64,000 bases of DNA from Nitrospira sp. Lineage in GTDB: Bacteria; Nitrospirota; Nitrospiria; Nitrospirales; Nitrospiraceae. Every line of letters starts with the position of its first letter. The first letter of the stretch is position 1. The translations under genes were made by a program, and so were the position numbers. Location of the stretch: the NCBI GenBank assembly GCA_024998625.1, contig JACOEL010000023.1, positions 1-64,000 on the forward strand, in the 5' to 3' direction. Positions 28,038 through 45,798 of the stretch are shown here, piece after piece. The notes beneath the pieces are model-generated. The model made no database searches. It was not told the DNA's origin and saw only the letters and a program-made list of their open reading frames with translations.

Positions 28038-29600
28038 TCATCGCACGTTGACGAAGCGGCCGTGAGCCATGGTTCGAAGCCGATCGATGTCTTCGTGGCG
28101 AGTGACCGAGAGCGGCACGGTGCCGGATAATTCTTGAATCAAGAGATCGGTCGTCAGTGGGGTTTTATCGTGTAAGGCCCGGTAGAGTGCGGCGACCACC
28201 GCCTGTTCGATTTCCGAGCCGCTGAACCCGTCACTGGCGCTGACAATTTTCTCAAGGTCGAATCCCACGCTGTCTTGTTTGCGGAGCGCAAGGTGGATCT
28301 TCCAGATGGCGGTCCGTTCGTGGTCGTCCGGCAAGTCCACGAAGAAGATTTCGTCGAACCGTCCTTTGCGTAGCAGTTCCGGCGGGAGGGACGCAAGGTT
28401 GTTTGCCGTGGCGACGACGAACACCTCCTGTTTCTTTTCCTGCAGCCAGGTGAGAAAGGCGCCGAAGAGCCGGCGGCTCAATCCGGCATCGGCATCTCCG
28501 CTCCCGCCGCCGGCCACCATGGCCTTCTCTATTTCATCGATCCAGAGCACGATCGGCGAGAGGGATTCGGCCAACTCGATCGCCTTCCGGAAATTCTTCT
28601 CCGATTCGCCGACGAATTTGTCGAAGAGCCGCCCGGCATCGAGTTTGAGCAGTGGGAGTTGCCACTCGCGCGCAATGGCTTTTGCCGCGAGCGACTTGCC
28701 GCAGCCCGGCACCCCTACCAGCATGATGCCGCGCGGCGGCGTCAGGTTGAGCGCCTTGGCTTCTGCCGTGAATCCCACCTTCGCCCGTTCCAGCCAGGAT
28801 TTCAGATTCACGAACCCGCCCAATTCGAACCGGTTGTCTTCGAGGGGATAATATTCCAGCAGCCCTCCGTCCTTGATCGCCTGGACCTTGCGTTTCAGGA
28901 TGGTCTGCACATCATCAGCGGACAATCTGCCGTCCTCAACGAGGCATTGCGTGATGACCAGCCGGGCTTGATGCAGCGTCAATCCCTGCAAGGCGCGGAG
29001 AATGGCGTCGGATTCTTGCGTCGAGGGGCTTGCCTGCGTCGGTTTGGAATCGGCGAGCGAGTGAAGAATACTCTGCACCACGGTGGTGGAGCCGGGGCGG
29101 CGTGGCGACGTTCTCGTGCCGAGTGACTGCAGCACACTGTGGAGCATGGACTGCAGTTCGTTACGATCCGGCAGCTGCAGGTCGAGCCGGACCGCAATCT
29201 GTTCAATGTCGGTCGGAAGGACGATGGGATGGCCGGTGAGCACACAGGTCGTACGAGATCGGCCGAAGTGATGACTCACTTCCCGAAGCTGGCGGGCCAC
29301 GGCGGCGTCCTGCAGGTGCGGCGCAAGATCTTTGAGCCAGAACAAGGCTTCTACGGTCAGACCGTTGAGGTGTTGAAGGACTGCCAGAGGGGTGGCCGTC
29401 ATCTTACTGATGCTCTGCCCCTCGTCCTGCCTGGTGAGGCCCCTGGTAATCGACCATTCGAACAGCGGCATGCGTTCCTGCGCTGCCACGGATTGGAGCA
29501 ACGCCAGCACCCGCTCTTCTTCCACCGTCTCGATGACGATCAGGGGGTGGCAGGAGCGAATCAGTGTGCGGAGGTCATGCACGCTCGTCGATAACGCCAT
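28038..29600 (-). CDS. Ycf46-like AAA+ ATPase
   Basis: The 520-residue protein resembles cyanobacterial Ycf46: an N-terminal domain starting with LRTLIRSCHPLIVIETVEEERVL, a middle helical region, and one AAA module with Walker A GVPGCGKSLAAKA, Walker B VLWIDEIEKAM, sensor 1 VVATANN and the arginine-finger region LLRKGRFDEIFFV. It is a cytoplasmic AAA+ motor of unknown client; in cyanobacteria Ycf46 has been linked to carbon-limitation responses. No partner gene is obvious nearby. Confidence 0.88.
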   Translation of the reverse strand: MALSTSVHDLRTLIRSCHPLIVIETVEEERVLALLQSVAAQERMPLFEWSITRGLTRQDEGQSISKMTATPLAVLQHLNGLTVEALFWLKDLAPHLQDAAVARQLREVSHHFGRSRTTCVLTGHPIVLPTDIEQIAVRLDLQLPDRNELQSMLHSVLQSLGTRTSPRRPGSTTVVQSILHSLADSKPTQASPSTQESDAILRALQGLTLHQARLVITQCLVEDGRLSADDVQTILKRKVQAIKDGGLLEYYPLEDNRFELGGFVNLKSWLERAKVGFTAEAKALNLTPPRGIMLVGVPGCGKSLAAKAIAREWQLPLLKLDAGRLFDKFVGESEKNFRKAIELAESLSPIVLWIDEIEKAMVAGGGSGDADAGLSRRLFGAFLTWLQEKKQEVFVVATANNLASLPPELLRKGRFDEIFFVDLPDDHERTAIWKIHLALRKQDSVGFDLEKIVSASDGFSGSEIEQAVVAALYRALHDKTPLTTDLLIQELSGTVPLSVTRHEDIDRLRTMAHGRFVNVR

Positions 29601-30635: not shown

Positions 30636-30973
30636 TGGCTGACCAAGTTGCCATGGCGATGTTTGAGTCCCCATTCGGCGTTCGTGATGTTGAGCAGGTG
30701 TCGATAGTGATTTCCTATGGCTACGACATCATGATCTCACATGTACGAACAACAAAAGCGTTCGTGCATTCTCCTGGGGAATGGCTGAAGCGACTTGGGA
30801 TCGACGATCCAACGAGAGCCGCGCCGCAAGTATCATCGTCGATGGCGAATGACGATAGTGTCGAGCGGGATACGAACTTCGAGGATCCGTGCTTCTTCCG
30901 AGCAACAAGCTATATTCCATCGGTTCTTCACTCCGGCTACCAGCCCAATCAGGATCTCCGTTTAAGTTGTTGA
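30627..30973 (+). CDS. C-terminal domain of the RDD protein in the -1 frame
   Basis: After the A7 run the -1 frame continues MEIVADQVAMAMFESPF and then VEQVSIVISYGYDIMISHVRT, with HSPGEWLKRLG towards the end. Composition and codon use look coding, and the sequence joins naturally to the preceding VVSLWGKPKK of the zero frame. I do not recognise the domain; it follows the last membrane segment and should be soluble. Residues beyond about RLG may be non-genic run-on, as the frame overlaps the end of the convergent PIN gene by about 25 bases. Confidence 0.5.
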
Positions 30974-31365
30974 AGGAAGGCTGTGGCGGAGAGGATGTCG
31001 ACCGATTCGACGTGATGCAGGCTGCGGAGATCGTCGTCGCCGCTCACGAGCCATCGGACGCCGGCGGCCACCGCGCAGGTACTGAACTTGGCATCGTCTG
31101 GGTCGCGTAAGTCGGGAATGTTCGTTGGGACCGCAGTCACCGTTTCAATGAAGGGGATCAGCTCTTCTTCCAGTAGCCCTCGTATTTCGGTATTCGTCAG
31201 CGTGAATTTTGGATAGGCGAGGACGCGGATATATTCGTCGAGGATAGGAGCGGATACGACAGGGCGAAGTCGGCCGGATTGCCAGGCAGAAATAAGTCGT
31301 GATGGTGGCCTGGAGAATAGCAATGCCGAGACGACGACATTCGTCTCGAGAACGGCTCGGATTAC
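30949..31365 (-). CDS. PIN-domain toxin with aberrant start
   Basis: PIN toxins of this family (COG1569) are Mg-dependent ribonucleases. The frame contains LLFSRPPSRLI, SAPILDEYIRVLAYPKF, DPDDAKFSTCAVAAG with catalytic Asp residues, and the ending LVSGDDDLRSL. Family proteins begin M/V-I-R-x-V-L-D-T-N; here the same frame reads VIRAVLETN from 31365, but its first codon is GTA rather than GTG or ATG, and the first catalytic Asp is Glu. The nearest usable codons are CTG at 31389 or TTG at 31323 (which loses the first strand). It overlaps the stop of the antitoxin gene, as normal for such pairs. It may be inactive. Confidence 0.65.
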   Translation of the reverse strand, partial: VIRAVLETNVVVSALLFSRPPSRLISAWQSGRLRPVVSAPILDEYIRVLAYPKFTLTNTEIRGLLEEELIPFIETVTAVPTNIPDLRDPDDAKFSTCAVAAGVRWLVSGDDDLRSLHHVESVDILSATAFLQQLKRRS

Positions 31366-31604
31366 CGGCGGCGACGTCCTCTCGCCCAGGCAATGGCGCG
31401 ATCCACGTCTTTCATCTCAATTCCGAGCTCTTTGATTTTCTGGCGAACCGCTGTGAGGCGCGAGCCCGGCTCTGCCATGGTTACCGTCTTTAGTATCAGG
31501 ACTCCGCCCTTGGCCGTGACATCAAAATAGTCGGTTTCAGGAATCTCTTGCAACGCCTTCTTGGGCAATGTCACCTGATTCTTCGATGTTTTCTTTGCCA
31601 ACAT
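31362..31604 (-). CDS. AbrB/SpoVT-like antitoxin
   Basis: An 80-residue protein starting MLAKKTSKNQVTLPKKAL, the swapped-hairpin AbrB DNA-binding pattern, followed by YFDVTAKGGVLILKTV and a basic end RGRRRR. The C-terminal half should bind the PIN toxin encoded directly downstream (stop and toxin frame overlap). GAGGGG stands before the ATG at 31604; the frame is open to 31736, but that part overlaps the next gene. Antitoxin-toxin complexes usually repress their own promoter. Confidence 0.75.
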   Translation of the reverse strand: MLAKKTSKNQVTLPKKALQEIPETDYFDVTAKGGVLILKTVTMAEPGSRLTAVRQKIKELGIEMKDVDRAIAWARGRRRR

Positions 31605-31674: not shown

Positions 31675-32535
31675 CTAGACGTCATTCTCCGTGAGGCAGC
31701 GACCGAGGCCCTGCTGTTCGGCGAGGTGATAGGCATAGTGCAGGGCCGCCAGGTTCGCCACGCGCTCCTCGGCTTCCTCGCGACTATCTGAATAAATGAT
31801 CTGCAGCCCGAATCTGGCCGTCAGGGAATCCAGAAAGTCCACGATGCCGTTTCGGTGATACTGGCCGAGCCGCCCTCCGCCGCGGTTGTACTGGATGGTC
31901 CCTTCGATCAGCAGAAAGCGATGGGGAAAAGCACGGAGAGGTTCGAGCTCACGGAGAAAACGCGGGCGATTGTCGGACGGGTTGGAGAAGATGGTGTCGA
32001 ACTCCTCTACGCGACGGCGTTCCACGCAAAAAATAGCCGGGGCTTCCGCAATCGCATAGTCACCGGCCGGCAGTGTCTGTTTCATCGTTCCGGCGATGCG
32101 CACGAGTCCCTTGAATTCGTACGGCAGATGTTCGCGGCTGTCGACCAGCATATGGATGGCCGGCACCATGATTTTGGGATGACTGAACCGGGTGACGTTC
32201 AGCATCGTTTGGGGCCCGCGCAGTTCCTGGCGCGGTCGTGGAGCGGCTTGCGGACGGGGTGTCGGCGAGGGGCGTGGAGGCGGCGTCGGTGATGAGGGAT
32301 GTTGTCTGCCGGCGTCGTACCGGGCGCGGGCTGCGGGGTCGCTGAGGGTCTGATAGGCCTGGTTGATCAGCTGCGTGCGGGCTTCGGCTTTCCGGTGCAA
32401 GGTCGGCGAATGCACAAAGCGATCGGGATGCCAGACTTGCATGTGTTCATGCCAGGCTCGCTTGATTTCCGCGTCTGACGCGCCGGGAGAGAGTTCAAGG
32501 ATGGCGTAGTAGTTCGTGGTCCGTTCGTCTCGCAT
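31675..32535 (-). CDS. J-domain fused to an ERCC4-type nuclease domain
   Basis: The 286-residue protein has a DnaJ J-domain at residues 8-75 with the HPD motif at 36-38 (QVWHPDRF), a Pro/Arg-rich linker at about 78-105, and an ERCC4/XPF nuclease-like domain from about residue 124: VDSRE at 131-135, GDY at 158-160 and VERRR at 171-175 with Asp180, corresponding to the GDx(n)ERKx3D metal site. XPF/Mus81 nucleases cut branched DNA; J-domains recruit Hsp70. The pairing is unusual. No dnaK or grpE is in the window. The antitoxin gene follows downstream, with the unlikely longer antitoxin frame overlapping it. Confidence 0.8.
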   Translation of the reverse strand: MRDERTTNYYAILELSPGASDAEIKRAWHEHMQVWHPDRFVHSPTLHRKAEARTQLINQAYQTLSDPAARARYDAGRQHPSSPTPPPRPSPTPRPQAAPRPRQELRGPQTMLNVTRFSHPKIMVPAIHMLVDSREHLPYEFKGLVRIAGTMKQTLPAGDYAIAEAPAIFCVERRRVEEFDTIFSNPSDNRPRFLRELEPLRAFPHRFLLIEGTIQYNRGGGRLGQYHRNGIVDFLDSLTARFGLQIIYSDSREEAEERVANLAALHYAYHLAEQQGLGRCLTENDV

Positions 32536-38773: not shown

Positions 38774-39961
38774 TCAGGCGCTGGTCTGCGAAAATGGATG
38801 CAGATGGCTCAGGCTGACATGTTTCTGTGCGAAGGCCTCACCGACCCGCTGGATGTCCGCGATGTGTTTCACCGAATCCATCACCTGCACATTTTCCGCT
38901 TGTACGTTGCCGAGACCCAAGGTGTCTAAGCCGGTTTGGCTCACGTCCGGATCGTAGCGCACATAGGTGAACTGTTTCGCTCCGGTCCAGTTGGATGCTT
39001 TTGCGTCCGCCGCAAGCACCATGTCGCCGATTTCACGGTCGATTGATGCGCCGAAACGGCAATCGCCTAACATGCGGCAGGCCATGTCCCAGCCGGCGCA
39101 GGCCGCATTCATTAAGGCCCGCGGGACATTCTTGGCGTGATCTCCTAACCAGAGGTCATCTGCTTGCAGGTTGGGGCGCGCGAAAGCGGCGCAGCCCGTT
39201 CCCACTGAGACGATTAACAGCTTGTCCGTCCCGGTGGACCAGTTGAGCTTATATGGCGCCGCTGTCGCCATCTGAAAGGCGAGGAACGCGGGATTGTTGT
39301 ACGTGGTCACGCCGCCATCGACGAAAATGAATTGATACTCGCTCGGTGTGCCGGGGGCGAAGATCACCACCTCGGGCGGGAAGAAGGTCGGCGCGGCGGT
39401 GCTGGCGCGCACCAGTTGCCACAGCGGCAAGTTCAGATTGCAGTCTTTGCGATCACGCTGGTTGTACTTGGCTTTGGGGTTATTCCAGATCGGCCAGGGG
39501 GAATCCGTGGTGTGGTTGCGCAACACCATCATCAGCAAGGTGCGCAGTCCCGCGTCGCCGAGGGTGGCGGGTGGTGCGCCGTCTGAATAACCCAACGCCC
39601 GGTTGAGTTCGGCGCGTAGTTTGGCGGCCAGCGGTTCATCGTCATAGCTATAGCGTAGCCGCTTGAAGACCGAAGCCTTGTCGAACATTTGTTGTCCGCT
39701 CGAGACATAGAAGGCGCGAATCTTGTCCATGGACATGCCCGCCGAAATGCAGGCGGCGATGATGGCTCCCGTGCTGGTCCCGCAGACGAAATCAAACCAG
39801 TCGCCCAGGACCAATTCCGGTTTTCCAAGTTGTGCGCGGAGGTCGGCCTCCAGCTTGGCGAGAATTTCCGCGCTCATCAGTCCAAGAATCCCACCGCCGT
39901 CACAGGCGAGAATTGTTTTGAGGCCGGAGGGTTCAATGCGGGTTTTCAACCTCTCGCTCAT
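38774..39961 (-). CDS. Patatin-like phospholipase
   Basis: The 395-residue protein has the patatin catalytic dyad: oxyanion hole CDGGGILG at residues 20-27, nucleophile elbow GTSTG at 61-65 (Ser63) and the Asp of VDGG at 215-217. Patatins hydrolyse membrane phospholipids; relatives such as CapV act as membrane-damaging effectors in anti-phage systems. AGGAGG precedes the ATG. It lies 39 bp after a TIR-WD40 gene and ends a three-gene minus-strand operon. No signal peptide or membrane segment, so it acts from the cytoplasm. No cyclic-nucleotide synthase gene is nearby. Confidence 0.9.
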   Translation of the reverse strand: MSERLKTRIEPSGLKTILACDGGGILGLMSAEILAKLEADLRAQLGKPELVLGDWFDFVCGTSTGAIIAACISAGMSMDKIRAFYVSSGQQMFDKASVFKRLRYSYDDEPLAAKLRAELNRALGYSDGAPPATLGDAGLRTLLMMVLRNHTTDSPWPIWNNPKAKYNQRDRKDCNLNLPLWQLVRASTAAPTFFPPEVVIFAPGTPSEYQFIFVDGGVTTYNNPAFLAFQMATAAPYKLNWSTGTDKLLIVSVGTGCAAFARPNLQADDLWLGDHAKNVPRALMNAACAGWDMACRMLGDCRFGASIDREIGDMVLAADAKASNWTGAKQFTYVRYDPDVSQTGLDTLGLGNVQAENVQVMDSVKHIADIQRVGEAFAQKHVSLSHLHPFSQTSA

Positions 39962-40000
39962 GTTGCCTCCTGAAGATAGTCCGTAGAAGTGAATGGCTCG

Positions 40001-41497
40001 CTAGTCCGTTTTATTGTCTTTGCCTGGGGCAATGCTGGGTGACTCTTGTGCCGGCGCATCCGGCGGAATCGGCAAACCTGGGCATTGTTCGCGATACTCA
40101 ATGTCCGGTGAGACCTGTTCGCGCCATTCCTTACGGCTCATGTTACGGGTGAGCTTGGCACAGAGTTCGTTGGGCCAGGCATCGGGTGCTGGCCAGAGTC
40201 GCAGCGTCTTGTCCAAACTACCCGAGACAAGGCGGCGGCCATCAGGGCTGAACGCCACACTCGTCACCCACGAGCCATGGCTGTCCAACGGCTCACCAAT
40301 GGGCTGGCCCGTCTCGCTATTCCAAAGCCGGAGTATCCCGTCCTTACTGCCCGTGACGAGGCGGCGACCGTCCGGGCTGAACGCCATACTCATCACCTCC
40401 GCTTTGGGCCCTTTCAGTGATACGCCGATCGACTGGCCGGTCTCCGCATCCCAGCGCCGCACTGTTCCATCGGCACCGCCGGAGAGGAGATGGGTCCCGT
40501 CCGGGCTGAACGCCACACTCCTCACCCACGCGTTATGCCCCTTCAACGGCTCGCCGATTGGCTGGCCCGTCTGGGCATCCCAGAGCCGTACCGTTCCATC
40601 CCCACTGCCGGAAAGGAAGCGACGGCCGTCCGGGCTGAATCTGACTACTTCAGCCGAAGAGTTGGTTTTGATTATTTTGTTCACTCGCTCTAGCGCAAAT
40701 ACCTCAGTCCACATCGTGTTCTCGATTTCGATATGTGGCGCAATCCGGTGCGCCGCCAGCAGTTTCGACAACCCAAGCACCAACCCCCCTGGACGGGCGC
40801 CGGATAGCATGGTCTGTGCTTCCGTATTCAGTCGCAGCGCTGTGGCGTTTCGGAGTGCGATTTCAAGATGGTTCTTGCTGTCGATCACCCGAAAAGTGGC
40901 AACTGCAAGAGCAATCGCCAGGGCTGCCAGCAACGTAAACACAGTGCGAGTCATCCAGCGCCAGCGCTGGTTTGCCTTCTTCGAATTAGGTGCGGTGGCC
41001 AGTCGATTGACGACGTCATCAGATGCGAGGCCAGCCGAGACGGCCTCGTTTGATTCATTGATCCAAATATTGCCTTGGTGTGCGAGCCACTCCTGAACTC
41101 TTGATGAAAGTTCACCATCTTGCAGCGCTCCTCCAACGTTGATCGGAACAATCGGTCGGTCTCGACGCACCTTGCGGAACTCCTCAACTTCGGTTCGAAC
41201 CCAGCGGGGCTCTTCCAATGTTTCGCGGTTGGCGATGACGACCAGTGCATGAGAACGGAGGAGGGCTTGGTGTAGCGTGCTGTCGAGTTGATTGCCGACC
41301 GGGGCCTCGTCCTCACTGAAAAAGACCGTATAGTCAGCTTCGCGAAGGCGGCGAGTGAGATCAGACGCATAACTGCGAGTTCCCCGTGGCGGCGGGCCGA
41401 GAGCGAATGAAATGAAGATATCGTAGCCAAATAACCGCGCTGCATAGCTGCGCTTGGGCGCTGCTGACCTGGGAGTGGCTTCCACTGAATTCAGCAT
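40001..41497 (-). CDS. TIR-transmembrane-WD40 protein
   Basis: From the ATG at 41497 the protein is 498 residues. A TIR domain covers about residues 24-140: DIFISFALG, FFSEDEAPVGNQL and the helix RWVRTEVEEF, where Glu103 sits at the NADase catalytic position. A single membrane segment follows (about 185-204), then a helical linker (LEIALRNATALRLNTEA, LGLSKLLAAHRI) like that of STAND-type proteins, then four WD40 repeats (about 284-434) and a C-terminal tail. TIR domains cleave NAD or make signalling nucleotides in bacterial immunity. The frame is open to 41674 but that part lies inside the upstream gene, whose stop is 14 bp before this ATG. Confidence 0.85.
   Translation of the reverse strand: MLNSVEATPRSAAPKRSYAARLFGYDIFISFALGPPPRGTRSYASDLTRRLREADYTVFFSEDEAPVGNQLDSTLHQALLRSHALVVIANRETLEEPRWVRTEVEEFRKVRRDRPIVPINVGGALQDGELSSRVQEWLAHQGNIWINESNEAVSAGLASDDVVNRLATAPNSKKANQRWRWMTRTVFTLLAALAIALAVATFRVIDSKNHLEIALRNATALRLNTEAQTMLSGARPGGLVLGLSKLLAAHRIAPHIEIENTMWTEVFALERVNKIIKTNSSAEVVRFSPDGRRFLSGSGDGTVRLWDAQTGQPIGEPLKGHNAWVRSVAFSPDGTHLLSGGADGTVRRWDAETGQSIGVSLKGPKAEVMSMAFSPDGRRLVTGSKDGILRLWNSETGQPIGEPLDSHGSWVTSVAFSPDGRRLVSGSLDKTLRLWPAPDAWPNELCAKLTRNMSRKEWREQVSPDIEYREQCPGLPIPPDAPAQESPSIAPGKDNKTD
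40140..40660 (-). repeat. Four 129-bp DNA repeats encoding WD40 blades
   Basis: The string GGGCTGAA or a close variant recurs at 40245, 40374, 40503 and 40632, an exact 129-base (43-codon) period, with long near-identical stretches around it. It is coding repeat sequence, not a CRISPR array. The high similarity suggests recent duplication or gene conversion. Confidence 0.75.
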
Positions 41498-41511
41498 AGG
41501 AACAATGTGGT

Positions 41512-43494
41512 CTACAGACTCCTGCTGTCGATCCACGCGACTCTTCCTGTTCTCCGCTTCACTTCTTCGTACATGTGGGCCGTGCCGCCCGGTCCGTCGC
41601 CGCCGCCTCCGTCCCACAAGCAAATGAACCGCACTTTGTTGATGCCGTAGGATAGGGCGGTGTAGAGCAGCCACCGATTGCAGCGTTCGAATGGGTTCAC
41701 ACCATTGGGCAACGGGCCGAGTTCGTCCGGCATGATGCGAGGTTCGTCCTTCAGGCCTGATTTGAGGCGGTAGAACCGCTCACGCCACTTGTCACCGTCG
41801 GCAGAGGGAAGGATCGAGCGCTGGATGAATTCCGGCTCCGGGAGCGGCAGCAACAGTTGCAGCCGTACATTTCGTTGCCGGCAGGCTTCGAGAAACAGCA
41901 AATCCCCTCCGCTGGCCCCCTGGGTGAGCGCGAGGTCCTCCGGTCCGGCGCCCAGTTGATCCAACGCCGAGGCGATGTTCTGCGCCGCGACCGATTCCTT
42001 CTCGGCCGGGAACCGCTCGCTGGGGCGGCCCGGCGCGTCGATCATGTGGCCGCTGAAGAGGATCACCTGTCGCGGTTGCCAGTCTTCGGGCTTCTGAAGT
42101 TTCTGCAAGGCGCGGTCGAAGGTCGCGGTGCCGGCCTCGACGTTCTTCGGCCTGAAGCCTAAATCCTTGAGCAACTGGAGTTGGGCGCGACCGGAGTTGA
42201 GCGCAAACCAGTCCTTGTCATTTTTTGCCAGGGCTTCCTTGTACGCGGCCTGTGCCGCCTCCGGCGTACCGACCAGCACCTCTAGATCGCCCAGCGTCAT
42301 GTTGGACCAGAAGCGCTGCTGTTCATCCGGCTCGGACTCCGCTGCAAATCGGATGGCTCCGGCCATGGTGTCCATTTCACCGTCGTAGCGTGGATCTTTG
42401 ATGATGAGGTGGCGATGGAGGTGCATCAAGGTGAGCGCGTTGATGCCGGAGTAGTAATGACCGGGGTTGCGGCGGAAGGCGGTCGTGTAGCTGTCGATGG
42501 CGGCGCGTAGCAGGGCCTCTTCGTAGGCCGCTTCGTCTTGCATCTGTTCCGGGCTGTTGCCGGCGCGGCGCCAGGCGATGACCCAAGCATCCTTATCGAC
42601 GCGGCCGAGCAAGGCCCAGGTTTCCGGGTCATGCGGATACAACTCCAAGATTTTTCGGTAGTGCGCCCGCGCGCGGTCCATCGAATGGCCTGGGCGGCCG
42701 GCCAAGGCGAGCCGCTGCAAACAGATGCCCTGCTCGCGCAGACCCTTGAGATTGTGCGGTTCGACCGCCAGGCCTCGTTCGAGCTGTTCCAAGGCAAAGC
42801 CGAAGCGTTCTGCCTTGCGCAAGGCCTCGCCGGCCTTGATCCAGGCCTCGGCTCGAAACGCCGCGATCGGCGCCTCGTCCGCAAGGACCAGGACATCACC
42901 GATGTGCCCCGTTTTTCGCGCCAAGGCGATGCGGCTTTCCCATGTCTCATGCTGTTGCCAGAATTCCCGCACGTCGCCGATGCGAAGCGATTTCCAATCT
43001 GGCTCCTGGAGATTCGGCATCAATTGATAGACCGGACTCACCTTGCGGCCGTGCCACGACTCCATCGTCGCTGTGACCATGTCTGCAAGGTTCTTCTTGT
43101 CCAGCTTCAGGGCCGCAGGATCCGGTCCCCTGTTTGTGATGCTGTAGCGGAGCTTCCGATCGGTATAGAGGTCGAAGGCGGCGGGCACTCGCCCGCCGCA
43201 GGTCAAGACGACGCCGCGGGCGCGCAGCGCATGGCGCACGCCCAGTTCGTACCAGACGTTGGGATTATCCAGGGTGAGGTCCGCCACGACGAGGTCGGCG
43301 ATGAGGAGTTCCTGGAACATGTCGGTGCGGATATCGCCGGCCTGTACCTCTTCATCCGCACGAAATACGTCCAAGCCAGCGGCCTCCAGTGCCGGCTTGA
43401 TCAACTCAACATAGACACGATTAAAATCGATCTCGTTGCCTTGGTTGTCGCGCTTCACGCCGAACGGCATGGCGACAAAGGCATGTGGTTTCAT
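41512..43494 (-). CDS. Deoxyribosyltransferase-like / DUF4071 (TRAFs-binding) / SLOG-like protein
   Basis: The 660-residue protein has three parts. Residues 1-100 resemble nucleoside 2-deoxyribosyltransferase/TIR-like folds: FVAMPFG, then DLTLDNPNVWYELG with Glu83 in the catalytic position. Residues about 170-470 are TPR-like helices with the DUF4071 (MAP3K TRAFs-binding) signature LLGRVDKDAW, then FRRNPGHYYSGINALTL. Residues 476-660 begin VILFSGHMIDAPGR and contain TQGASGGDLLFLEAC and LLPLPEPEFI, a SLOG-type nucleotide-binding pattern. It is the first gene of a probable operon with the TIR-WD40 and patatin genes. I infer a sensor or nucleotide-signalling role; no experimental function is known to me. 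Confidence 0.75.
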   Translation of the reverse strand: MKPHAFVAMPFGVKRDNQGNEIDFNRVYVELIKPALEAAGLDVFRADEEVQAGDIRTDMFQELLIADLVVADLTLDNPNVWYELGVRHALRARGVVLTCGGRVPAAFDLYTDRKLRYSITNRGPDPAALKLDKKNLADMVTATMESWHGRKVSPVYQLMPNLQEPDWKSLRIGDVREFWQQHETWESRIALARKTGHIGDVLVLADEAPIAAFRAEAWIKAGEALRKAERFGFALEQLERGLAVEPHNLKGLREQGICLQRLALAGRPGHSMDRARAHYRKILELYPHDPETWALLGRVDKDAWVIAWRRAGNSPEQMQDEAAYEEALLRAAIDSYTTAFRRNPGHYYSGINALTLMHLHRHLIIKDPRYDGEMDTMAGAIRFAAESEPDEQQRFWSNMTLGDLEVLVGTPEAAQAAYKEALAKNDKDWFALNSGRAQLQLLKDLGFRPKNVEAGTATFDRALQKLQKPEDWQPRQVILFSGHMIDAPGRPSERFPAEKESVAAQNIASALDQLGAGPEDLALTQGASGGDLLFLEACRQRNVRLQLLLPLPEPEFIQRSILPSADGDKWRERFYRLKSGLKDEPRIMPDELGPLPNGVNPFERCNRWLLYTALSYGINKVRFICLWDGGGGDGPGGTAHMYEEVKRRTGRVAWIDSRSL

Positions 43495-43914
43495 GCGAGT
43501 CTCCGATTGGGAGTACGATGGCCTGCCGATTCGAGTTTCTCGTGTGACGGCCTGTGTACTATGGAGCGGCTAGGAACGCATCATACTCCGTTTGTAACCC
43601 GCTGAACATTGCGATGAGCCGGCCGAGCTGCTGTGCTTCGATTCCACCATGTCGAAGTCGAAACGCCAGGATCGCAAGCCGCAGTCAAGGCTCCACCGCA
43701 TCAATTCAACAGCAAATGCTGTACCGGGAAATGCGGTGAGCGGTCTTTGCTTATTTTGTGCAGTGATGCGAAATGCATGTATTTGTGGAGAATGGGAGCA
43801 TGACGGAATGCAGTATCTGAAAAACACGGCGCTGTTATCAAAAGAGATACAGCGGATCACTTCTGCAATTCACCGACCGGCGCGGGCCTGTCCCCTGAGG
43901 GCGGCTCTATGCAA
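43495..43914. other. Intergenic stretch with a possible gene remnant
   Basis: About 420 bp between the island's first gene and kup. No intact gene is convincing. On the minus strand, about 41 coding-like codons (LRLAILAFRLRHGGIEAQ and on to a stop near 43560) begin straight after a TGA, which may be the decayed tail of a gene. The promoter of the minus-strand operon should lie in the part next to 43494, but I see no clear boxes. Confidence 0.4.
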
Positions 43915-45798
43915 TCAAATCTCCAGCACCAGCCCGATTTCAATCACCTGTTCCGCCGGTAGGTGGAAATAGGAACTGGCCCTCTGAGTATTTCGTGACA
44001 GGAAGACGAATATTTTCTCCCGCCAGATTGCCATCCCCGGTTTCGGCGTCGCCAAAAAGGTCAGTCTGCTCAGGAAGAACGTCGTCTCATCGACAGGGAG
44101 GGGATGGCCGCGGGCTGCGAGGTGGGTGAGTACACGTGGGATGTCCGGCGTTTCCATGAATCCGCATCTTGCGACGACTTGAAACAGGTTCTCCCGGATG
44201 GTGGTGATCTCCAACGGGCCTCCCGACGGAACAAACGGCACAGGCTCTGTGCGGACCGTGAGCAGATAGACCTGCTCGTGGAGAGATTTATTATGCCTGA
44301 CATTTTGCAGCAAGGCGGGCGGGGTGATGTCGGGATGTTGCGATAAAAATACGGCGCGTCCGGCGGTTCTGCATTGCACCTGCGACAAGACTTCCTGGAC
44401 GAACTGAACGAGGGGAGGAAACTGCTCGCGCAAGTGGTCCGCCACAATCGCGCGTCCTCGCGCCCAGGTACTCATGACGGTGAATAGGGCCGCGCCGAGC
44501 AGCAGCGGGAACCATCCGCCATGGGAAATTTTTTGGGCATTTGCGAGAAAGAAGGCGAGATCGATGAGCAGGAATACCCCGACGGCCATGGCGGCCGGTA
44601 GCGGGTTCCATTGCCAATGGGCTTGGGCCACGCGGTACATCAGGAGCGTCGTGATGATCATGGAGCCCGAGACGGCGATGCCATAGGCCGCGGCCAGGTT
44701 GCTGGACGATCCGAACGAGAGGATCAGACCGACGGTCCCGATGAACATCAACCAGTTCAATAGGCCGAAATAGATTTGGCCATGTTGCTCGGCGGACGTG
44801 TGGGTGACCCGCAACGGCGGCAGATAGCCCAGTTGAACGGCTTGTAAGGTCAACGAGAAGGCTCCGGACAGCATGGCTTGCGATGCGATGATGGTGGCCA
44901 TGGTCGCCAGCGCGATCAAGGGGTACAGCATCCAGTCGGGGGCCAGGAAGTAAAAGGGATTAACCAGAGCCGTTGGGGTTCGCATGAGGAGTGCGCCCTG
45001 GCCGAAGTACTGGAGTAAGAGGGCGGGTAGGGCCACAGCAAACCAGCCGAGTTGGATCGGTCGGCGTCCAAAGTGGCCCATGTCGGCATACAAAGCTTCG
45101 GCCCCCGTGAGGACCAGAAACACACTGCCCAGCACCAGGATGCCGACTCCTGCATGGTGAATCAAAAATTGGATCGCATAGAGCGGATTGGCGGCACGCA
45201 GAACCTCCGGGGTTTGGAACAAACTGTGGAGCCCGAGCAGGGCCATCGTGACAAACCAGAGCAGCATGACGGGGCCGAAGATGTTCCCGATCGTCCCGGA
45301 GCCACGGCGCTGGATCATAAACAGCAAGGCGACCAGCGTGACGGTCAGAGGCAGGATGTAGGGGGTGAACAGATCGGTGGTCAGCGTCAGCCCTTCGACC
45401 GCGCTGAGGACCGAAATGGCCGGTGTAATGATGCCGTCGCTATAGAGAAAGGCCACGCCGATCAAGCCGAGTGTGACGACAACGTTGAGTCCTTTGCGGA
45501 GATCGACCGGGCGGGACCGCTGGCTGGGCGCCATGAGTGCCAGCATGCCGCCTTCGCCCTCGTTGTCGGCTTTCATCACGAATAACAGATATTTTACGGT
45601 GACGACGAGTACGAGCGACCACACGATCATGGACAGGATCCCCAGCACGTTGTCGGGAGTGGCCGACAGGCCATGCGATTCGTGAAAACATTCGCGCAGG
45701 GCATACAGCGGGCTGGTTCCGATGTCGCCATAGACCACGCCCATGGCGGCCACGGTGAGGGAGACGGAAGAAGATTGGTTGTTGAGATGCTTCGGCAT
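43915..45798 (-). CDS. kup: Low-affinity potassium transporter Kup
   Basis: Kup is a proton-coupled K+ uptake permease of the inner membrane. The 627-residue protein starts with the family signature VYGDIGTSPLYALRECF, followed by about twelve membrane segments (for example SDGIITPAISVLSAVEGL) and a hydrophilic C-terminal domain of about 170 residues ending IEIGLVLEI. Length and motifs are those of intact Kup. It is divergent from tex. Confidence 0.95.
   Translation of the reverse strand: MPKHLNNQSSSVSLTVAAMGVVYGDIGTSPLYALRECFHESHGLSATPDNVLGILSMIVWSLVLVVTVKYLLFVMKADNEGEGGMLALMAPSQRSRPVDLRKGLNVVVTLGLIGVAFLYSDGIITPAISVLSAVEGLTLTTDLFTPYILPLTVTLVALLFMIQRRGSGTIGNIFGPVMLLWFVTMALLGLHSLFQTPEVLRAANPLYAIQFLIHHAGVGILVLGSVFLVLTGAEALYADMGHFGRRPIQLGWFAVALPALLLQYFGQGALLMRTPTALVNPFYFLAPDWMLYPLIALATMATIIASQAMLSGAFSLTLQAVQLGYLPPLRVTHTSAEQHGQIYFGLLNWLMFIGTVGLILSFGSSSNLAAAYGIAVSGSMIITTLLMYRVAQAHWQWNPLPAAMAVGVFLLIDLAFFLANAQKISHGGWFPLLLGAALFTVMSTWARGRAIVADHLREQFPPLVQFVQEVLSQVQCRTAGRAVFLSQHPDITPPALLQNVRHNKSLHEQVYLLTVRTEPVPFVPSGGPLEITTIRENLFQVVARCGFMETPDIPRVLTHLAARGHPLPVDETTFFLSRLTFLATPKPGMAIWREKIFVFLSRNTQRASSYFHLPAEQVIEIGLVLEI

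Follow-up and report, generated by a model that had tools for sequence, protein, structure and literature searches.

What is known of ERCC4 proteins without catalytic activity comes mainly from the repair complexes of eukaryotes, and bacterial ERCC4 domains have, to our knowledge, been little studied. Nucleases of the XPF type are recognised by the catalytic motif GDXnERKX3D (PMC3905867; PMC7048804), and the proteins of the XPF family are dimers, in which one subunit is dead in several eukaryotic complexes (PMC3905867). A number of family members with an altered motif have been characterised: in FANCM it reads CDXnERRX3E, the nuclease activity of FANCM-FAAP24 is undetectable, and the ERCC4 domain has no metal bound in the crystal (PMC3905867); SHOC1, which has ERKX3E, showed no activity in vitro, a result that, as its authors acknowledge, may be an artefact of working with recombinant protein (PMC5962103); and in ERCC1 the former catalytic site, or the region around it, binds XPA (PMC6320978). 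These three precedents are analogies for the protein described here and not tests of it. On the chaperone side, AtcJ offers a bacterial example of a short J-protein with a dedicated role (PMC6715715).

The gene considered here, which combines a J-domain with an ERCC4 domain, occupies 31675..32535 on the reverse strand of a 64,000-nucleotide stretch of Nitrospira sp. DNA (referred to below as the window) and encodes 286 residues; it was defined from its open reading frame, its Pfam domains and its relatives. The J-domain comprises residues 8-74 (32314..32514, on the reverse strand, as are all other features of the gene; PF00226, E 9.6e-17) and matches the fold of solved J-domains with Z 12.4, the HPD motif being at residues 36-38 (32422..32430). 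There follows a Pro/Arg-rich linker, residues 77-124 (32164..32307), with a net charge of +7, low pLDDT and, over residues 77-104, relaxed constraint; by eye, its last part can be aligned with the arm at the N-terminus of the stand-alone ERCC4 proteins. The ERCC4 domain itself, residues 131-261 (31753..32145; PF02732, E 1.2e-11), has the Hef/XPF fold, and behind it come a C-terminal helix and tail (31678..31752) ending in GLGRCLTENDV, for which the stand-alone ERCC4 proteins have GLGRVLQEGDL. Both Pfam matches exceed the curated cut-offs. The first-pass annotation had claimed a complete HPD-bearing J-domain, with a Pro-rich linker leading to a domain of ERCC4 type, and so far it was right in every particular, including the presence of VDSRE, of GDY (residues 158-160) and of VERRR (residues 171-175). 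Beyond DnaJ and ERCC4 Pfam reports nothing in the protein, and in particular neither the substrate-binding C-terminal domains or zinc finger of class A and B DnaJ proteins nor an (HhH)2 module, the chain stopping with the tail behind the ERCC4 core; it also scores far below the NCBIfam cut-offs for DnaJ. The net charge of the ERCC4 part is -4. Upstream of the gene, CACTCCGCTACACTTC is conserved in the window's clade some 20-25 bases ahead of the start codon, while inspection by eye of the upstream region revealed no LexA box of the E. coli type.

Chance or an assembly artefact can be ruled out as the origin of this fusion, because the same fusion is carried by independent genomes, complete ones among them (N. 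defluvii, FP929003.1, and N. moscoviensis, NZ_CP011801.1). Within the Nitrospirota, to which all occurrence counts given here refer (the patterns used to scan the genome collection being too specific for distant fusions), 75 of the 147 genomes examined from the window's family (Nitrospira/Nitrospiraceae) have a match, almost always as a single copy, and the fusion is found also in a sister family of the same order (L146, L147), so that the further examples which the first-pass annotation had proposed looking for do indeed exist. In the genus a full or near-full copy is present in 24 of 29 genomes, and most of the genomes of the genus have the fusion at 79-97% identity; the closest named relatives are those of a Nitrospiraceae bacterium (97%), Candidatus N. 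defluvii (95%) and N. moscoviensis (70%). About half of the family's genomes are without the gene, and its role is accordingly dispensable or lineage-specific. Three complete genomes of the genus that do not have it also fail to show galE and the AAA gene at the threshold used, implying that the block is absent as a whole and that no empty site can be demonstrated. Two further genes deserve mention: a J-ERCC4 gene broken by a frame change, with a repeated stretch, is apparently a pseudogene (L148:4001-5057, reverse strand), and a 445-residue frame from the same family (L154, reverse strand) has a J-domain 46% identical to that of the window protein, followed by Sel1-like repeats, and is thus a J fusion of a different, likewise unusual kind.

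The active-site motif of the window protein reads GDX12ERRX3E and so departs from GDXnERKX3D. The GD is at residues 158-159 (32059..32064), and ERRRVEE at residues 172-178 (32002..32022) stands in place of the canonical ERKX3D, with R at the lysine position (174) and E at the position of the final aspartate (178). The aspartate with which the first-pass annotation had closed its signature, written as VERRR...D, is D180; this is not the catalytic one, and it recurs in only 3 of 74 relatives. When the motif was counted in 74 distinct J-fused sequences, the complete combination of GD, ERK and D was found in none: D159 is kept in 48, E172 in 40, K174 in 16 and D178 in 7, while 34 lack the metal-site aspartate or glutamate (D159 or E172), both being gone in 26 of these. 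Over the same set HPD is kept in 73 sequences, and within VDSRE (residues 131-135; 32131..32145) the D and E of the VDxxE motif, at columns 132 and 135, are almost invariant (D132 in 74/74, E135 in 72/74; R134 in 49/74). Taken together, the five columns of the motif have a mean entropy of 1.36 bits, above the 0.80 bits averaged over the domain; a value this high came up in 4.5% of draws when five columns were picked at random, and by itself this variability is modest evidence of decay. By clade, the sister family (L146/L147) has ERKX3E, the window's clade ERRX3E and other clades (L/V)RK, while in the most decayed clade SGY is found together with KR(I/M)G. On these counts the original reading of the protein as a nuclease is not upheld.

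The domain as a whole has nevertheless been maintained. The most decayed clade has a pN/pS of 0.12 over the ERCC4 part, a sign of purifying selection; its J-domain has 0.16 and its linker 0.46. The ERCC4 value implies that the domain is still needed in that clade, and the clades that have lost the active site have kept the same overall constraint. Structure prediction points the same way. The model of a decayed relative (L042) has a mean pLDDT of 77.9, rising to about 92 over the ERCC4 core, and it matches ApXPF with Z 14.6 and an rmsd of 2.0 over 127 residues, Hef with Z 14.2, FANCM with Z 13.0 and ERCC1 with Z about 12; the AlphaFold model of the window protein is weak (mean pLDDT 66), matching Hef/XPF at Z about 10. 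As judged from these models, the restriction-like XPF/Hef core is retained despite the decay. The first-pass annotation had regarded a missing core or metal site as fatal to its proposal: the core is there, but much of the family has no metal site, and that of the window protein is in doubt.

A likely starting point for such a domain is provided by stand-alone ERCC4 proteins of about 190-212 residues, found in other families of the Nitrospirota (L142-L145) and encoded by a conjugative plasmid of Rhodoferax (P0001). All of these have the complete motif (VD(T/S)RE, GDY and ERKX3D); they have no J-domain, but have in common with the window protein the C-terminal tail GLGRxLxExDL, and the plasmid protein is 34% identical to the window domain across the entire ERCC4 part. 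A quickly made tree, from which the motif columns had been left out and in which many forks have weak support, places these canonical proteins outside all of the fused ones. The minimum number of changes required by parsimony is three for E172, two for D159 and four for K174, a count that is in itself directionless, such that a complete ancestral motif rests on the outgroup. With the canonical stand-alone proteins in that role, the tree suggests that fusion came first and that the motif then decayed stepwise. As regards the surroundings of the stand-alone genes, in one case (L145:27-6582, reverse strand) a canonical gene is followed on the same strand by AddA-like and AddB-like genes, the spacings being 20 bases and an overlap, an array that is possibly a repair operon; in another (L143) the gene precedes one that weakly matches uracil-DNA glycosylases. 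An ERCC4 protein with the full motif (VDSRE, GDY and ERKSLPD) is found also in tailed viruses of Halorubrum (L153:2995-3432).

The explanation that best accommodates these results, and probably the right one, is that the protein serves as a J-domain co-chaperone, targeted by an ERCC4 domain of XPF/Hef type that has been exapted and has decayed catalytically, and positions DnaK on a partner. A stand-alone ERCC4 nuclease with the full motif would have become joined to a J-domain through the Pro-rich linker within the Nitrospirales, after which residues of the metal site would have been lost in several branches, the HPD and the remainder of the domain being conserved. In the present-day protein the J-domain would recruit and stimulate DnaK, and the ERCC4 fold would supply the address, acting as a non-cutting platform for binding or dimerisation in the manner of ERCC1, EME1 or FANCM; the place where DnaK acts would then be a DNA structure or, more likely, a protein bound to DNA. 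Recruitment of Hsp70 is plausible because the fusion is genuine and has both an intact HPD and a restriction-like core. A protein partner seems somewhat more likely than a DNA structure as the address because the ERCC4 part is net negative and there is no (HhH)2, properties that also speak against strong DNA binding by the ERCC4 part alone. A hetero-dimer with another XPF-family protein is unlikely, because the window's genome has no second ERCC4 gene, its one match to PF02732 being the fusion gene. A bolder version, which must be considered doubtful, is that the protein is an independently evolved, FANCM-like dead XPF nuclease wired to Hsp70, that is, an adaptor that would recognise DNA structures or DNA-bound complexes for DnaK to dismantle.

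The first-pass annotation had suggested a DNA repair or defence nuclease and had proposed a look at the neighbouring genes; a survey of 69 non-redundant loci points to no repair or defence operon, there being no recurrent repair or defence gene beside the fusion, and the protein has no match among the PADLOC models. In PHROGs it gives weak matches to a family of ERCC4-type nucleases and to J-domain families of unassigned function. Several neighbours were considered as partners and set aside: galE (25/69 loci) and a TrmL-like gene (45/69) run in the opposite direction; the gene of a TPR protein, likewise in 45/69, shares the strand of the fusion gene at a median distance of 3.2 kb; a Ycf46-type AAA ATPase is directly downstream on the same strand in just 14/69 loci, which belong to the window's clade; and a toxin-antitoxin pair found downstream is sporadic. 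In the window, the AAA ATPase gene is at 28038-29600 (reverse strand) and has a weak match to IetA that covers the AAA module only. The pair, just downstream of the fusion gene at 30949-31604 (reverse strand), consists of an AbrB-like antitoxin candidate (31362-31604, with no Pfam match) and a PIN_3 protein, which together are probably a toxin-antitoxin system; both recur in L056 and L104, and the antitoxin alone in L051. Further away, a possible defence cluster at 38774-45798 (reverse strand) contains a patatin-like phospholipase, which PADLOC effector models recognise with E 5e-41, an open reading frame with HEAT/ARM matches and a TPR-S protein whose match to TIR effectors is weak.

Other explanations fare less well. 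One that is rather unlikely, and that in any case amounts to a sub-case of the co-chaperone explanation in which only the ligand differs, would make the protein an AtcJ-like J-protein for a single cellular client, its ERCC4 fold being a mere protein-binding surface with no link to DNA. The negative charge of the domain, the loss of catalytic residues, the absence of DNA-repair neighbours and the precedent of AtcJ (PMC6715715) would all be in keeping with this, but relatives of the fold almost all work at DNA junctions. It is also quite unlikely that the window's clade has kept an active structure-specific nuclease, with R174 and E178 substituting for K and D, DnaK loading or remodelling it, and the decayed clades representing later losses. 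Because GD and ER are kept across this clade, where the motif columns are constrained (pN/pS 0.115), some residual or altered nuclease activity may persist there, and the sister family keeps ERK; against this, even that family has ERKX3E, the full motif being absent from every J-fused sequence, FANCM, in which both substitutions are found as well, is inactive and binds no metal in the crystal (PMC3905867), and clades without the site are equally constrained overall. Least credible of all is a decoy subunit that would pair with the canonical ERCC4 nuclease of an incoming phage or plasmid and hand it to DnaK for dissociation, as a counter to mobile elements, since, although a conjugative plasmid and viruses of Halorubrum carry canonical relatives and XPF-family dimers in several eukaryotic complexes do have one dead subunit (PMC3905867), the gene is vertical, slowly evolving and single-copy, has neither a matching defence model nor recurrent defence neighbours, and its kind of ERCC4 domain was found neither in phages of bacteria (by tblastn) nor in viral contigs (in two scans).

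A single phylum thus holds canonical stand-alone nucleases, fusions in which little has changed and fusions in which the site has been erased, and with all three stages available the conversion of an enzyme into a binding module can be traced, and tested step by step. If the co-chaperone explanation is correct, it suggests a route by which a bacterial Hsp70 might be directed by a borrowed nuclease fold. There is also a practical caution, in that a match to ERCC4 should not be annotated as a nuclease unless the motif has been read.

As to known systems, both domains are already familiar, and their fusion is apparently undescribed, no account of it having been found in the open-access literature. 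The archaeal Hef/XPF nucleases share the restriction-like core (Z 14, using the relative's model) but have a complete active site and an (HhH)2 module, and no J-domain. With the C-terminal ERCC4 domain of FANCM there is likeness both in the fold and in the K-to-R and D-to-E changes that give ERRX3E; FANCM differs, however, in that the G of GD is C, in being partnered by FAAP24 and in possessing a helicase part and (HhH)2, and it has no J-domain. More generally, the non-catalytic members of the XPF family (ERCC1, EME1, FANCM and FAAP24) resemble the present protein in combining an ERCC4 fold with a degenerate motif, but have (HhH)2 beside the ERCC4 domain, which the fusion protein lacks, so that it is not filed here as one of them and would at most work in a similar way. 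Its J-domain side is closest to the class C J-domain proteins such as AtcJ, with which it has in common an HPD-bearing J-domain and a non-canonical C-terminal part, with no G/F region or zinc finger; where AtcJ has a 21-residue extension (PMC6715715), the fusion protein has an entire ERCC4 domain.
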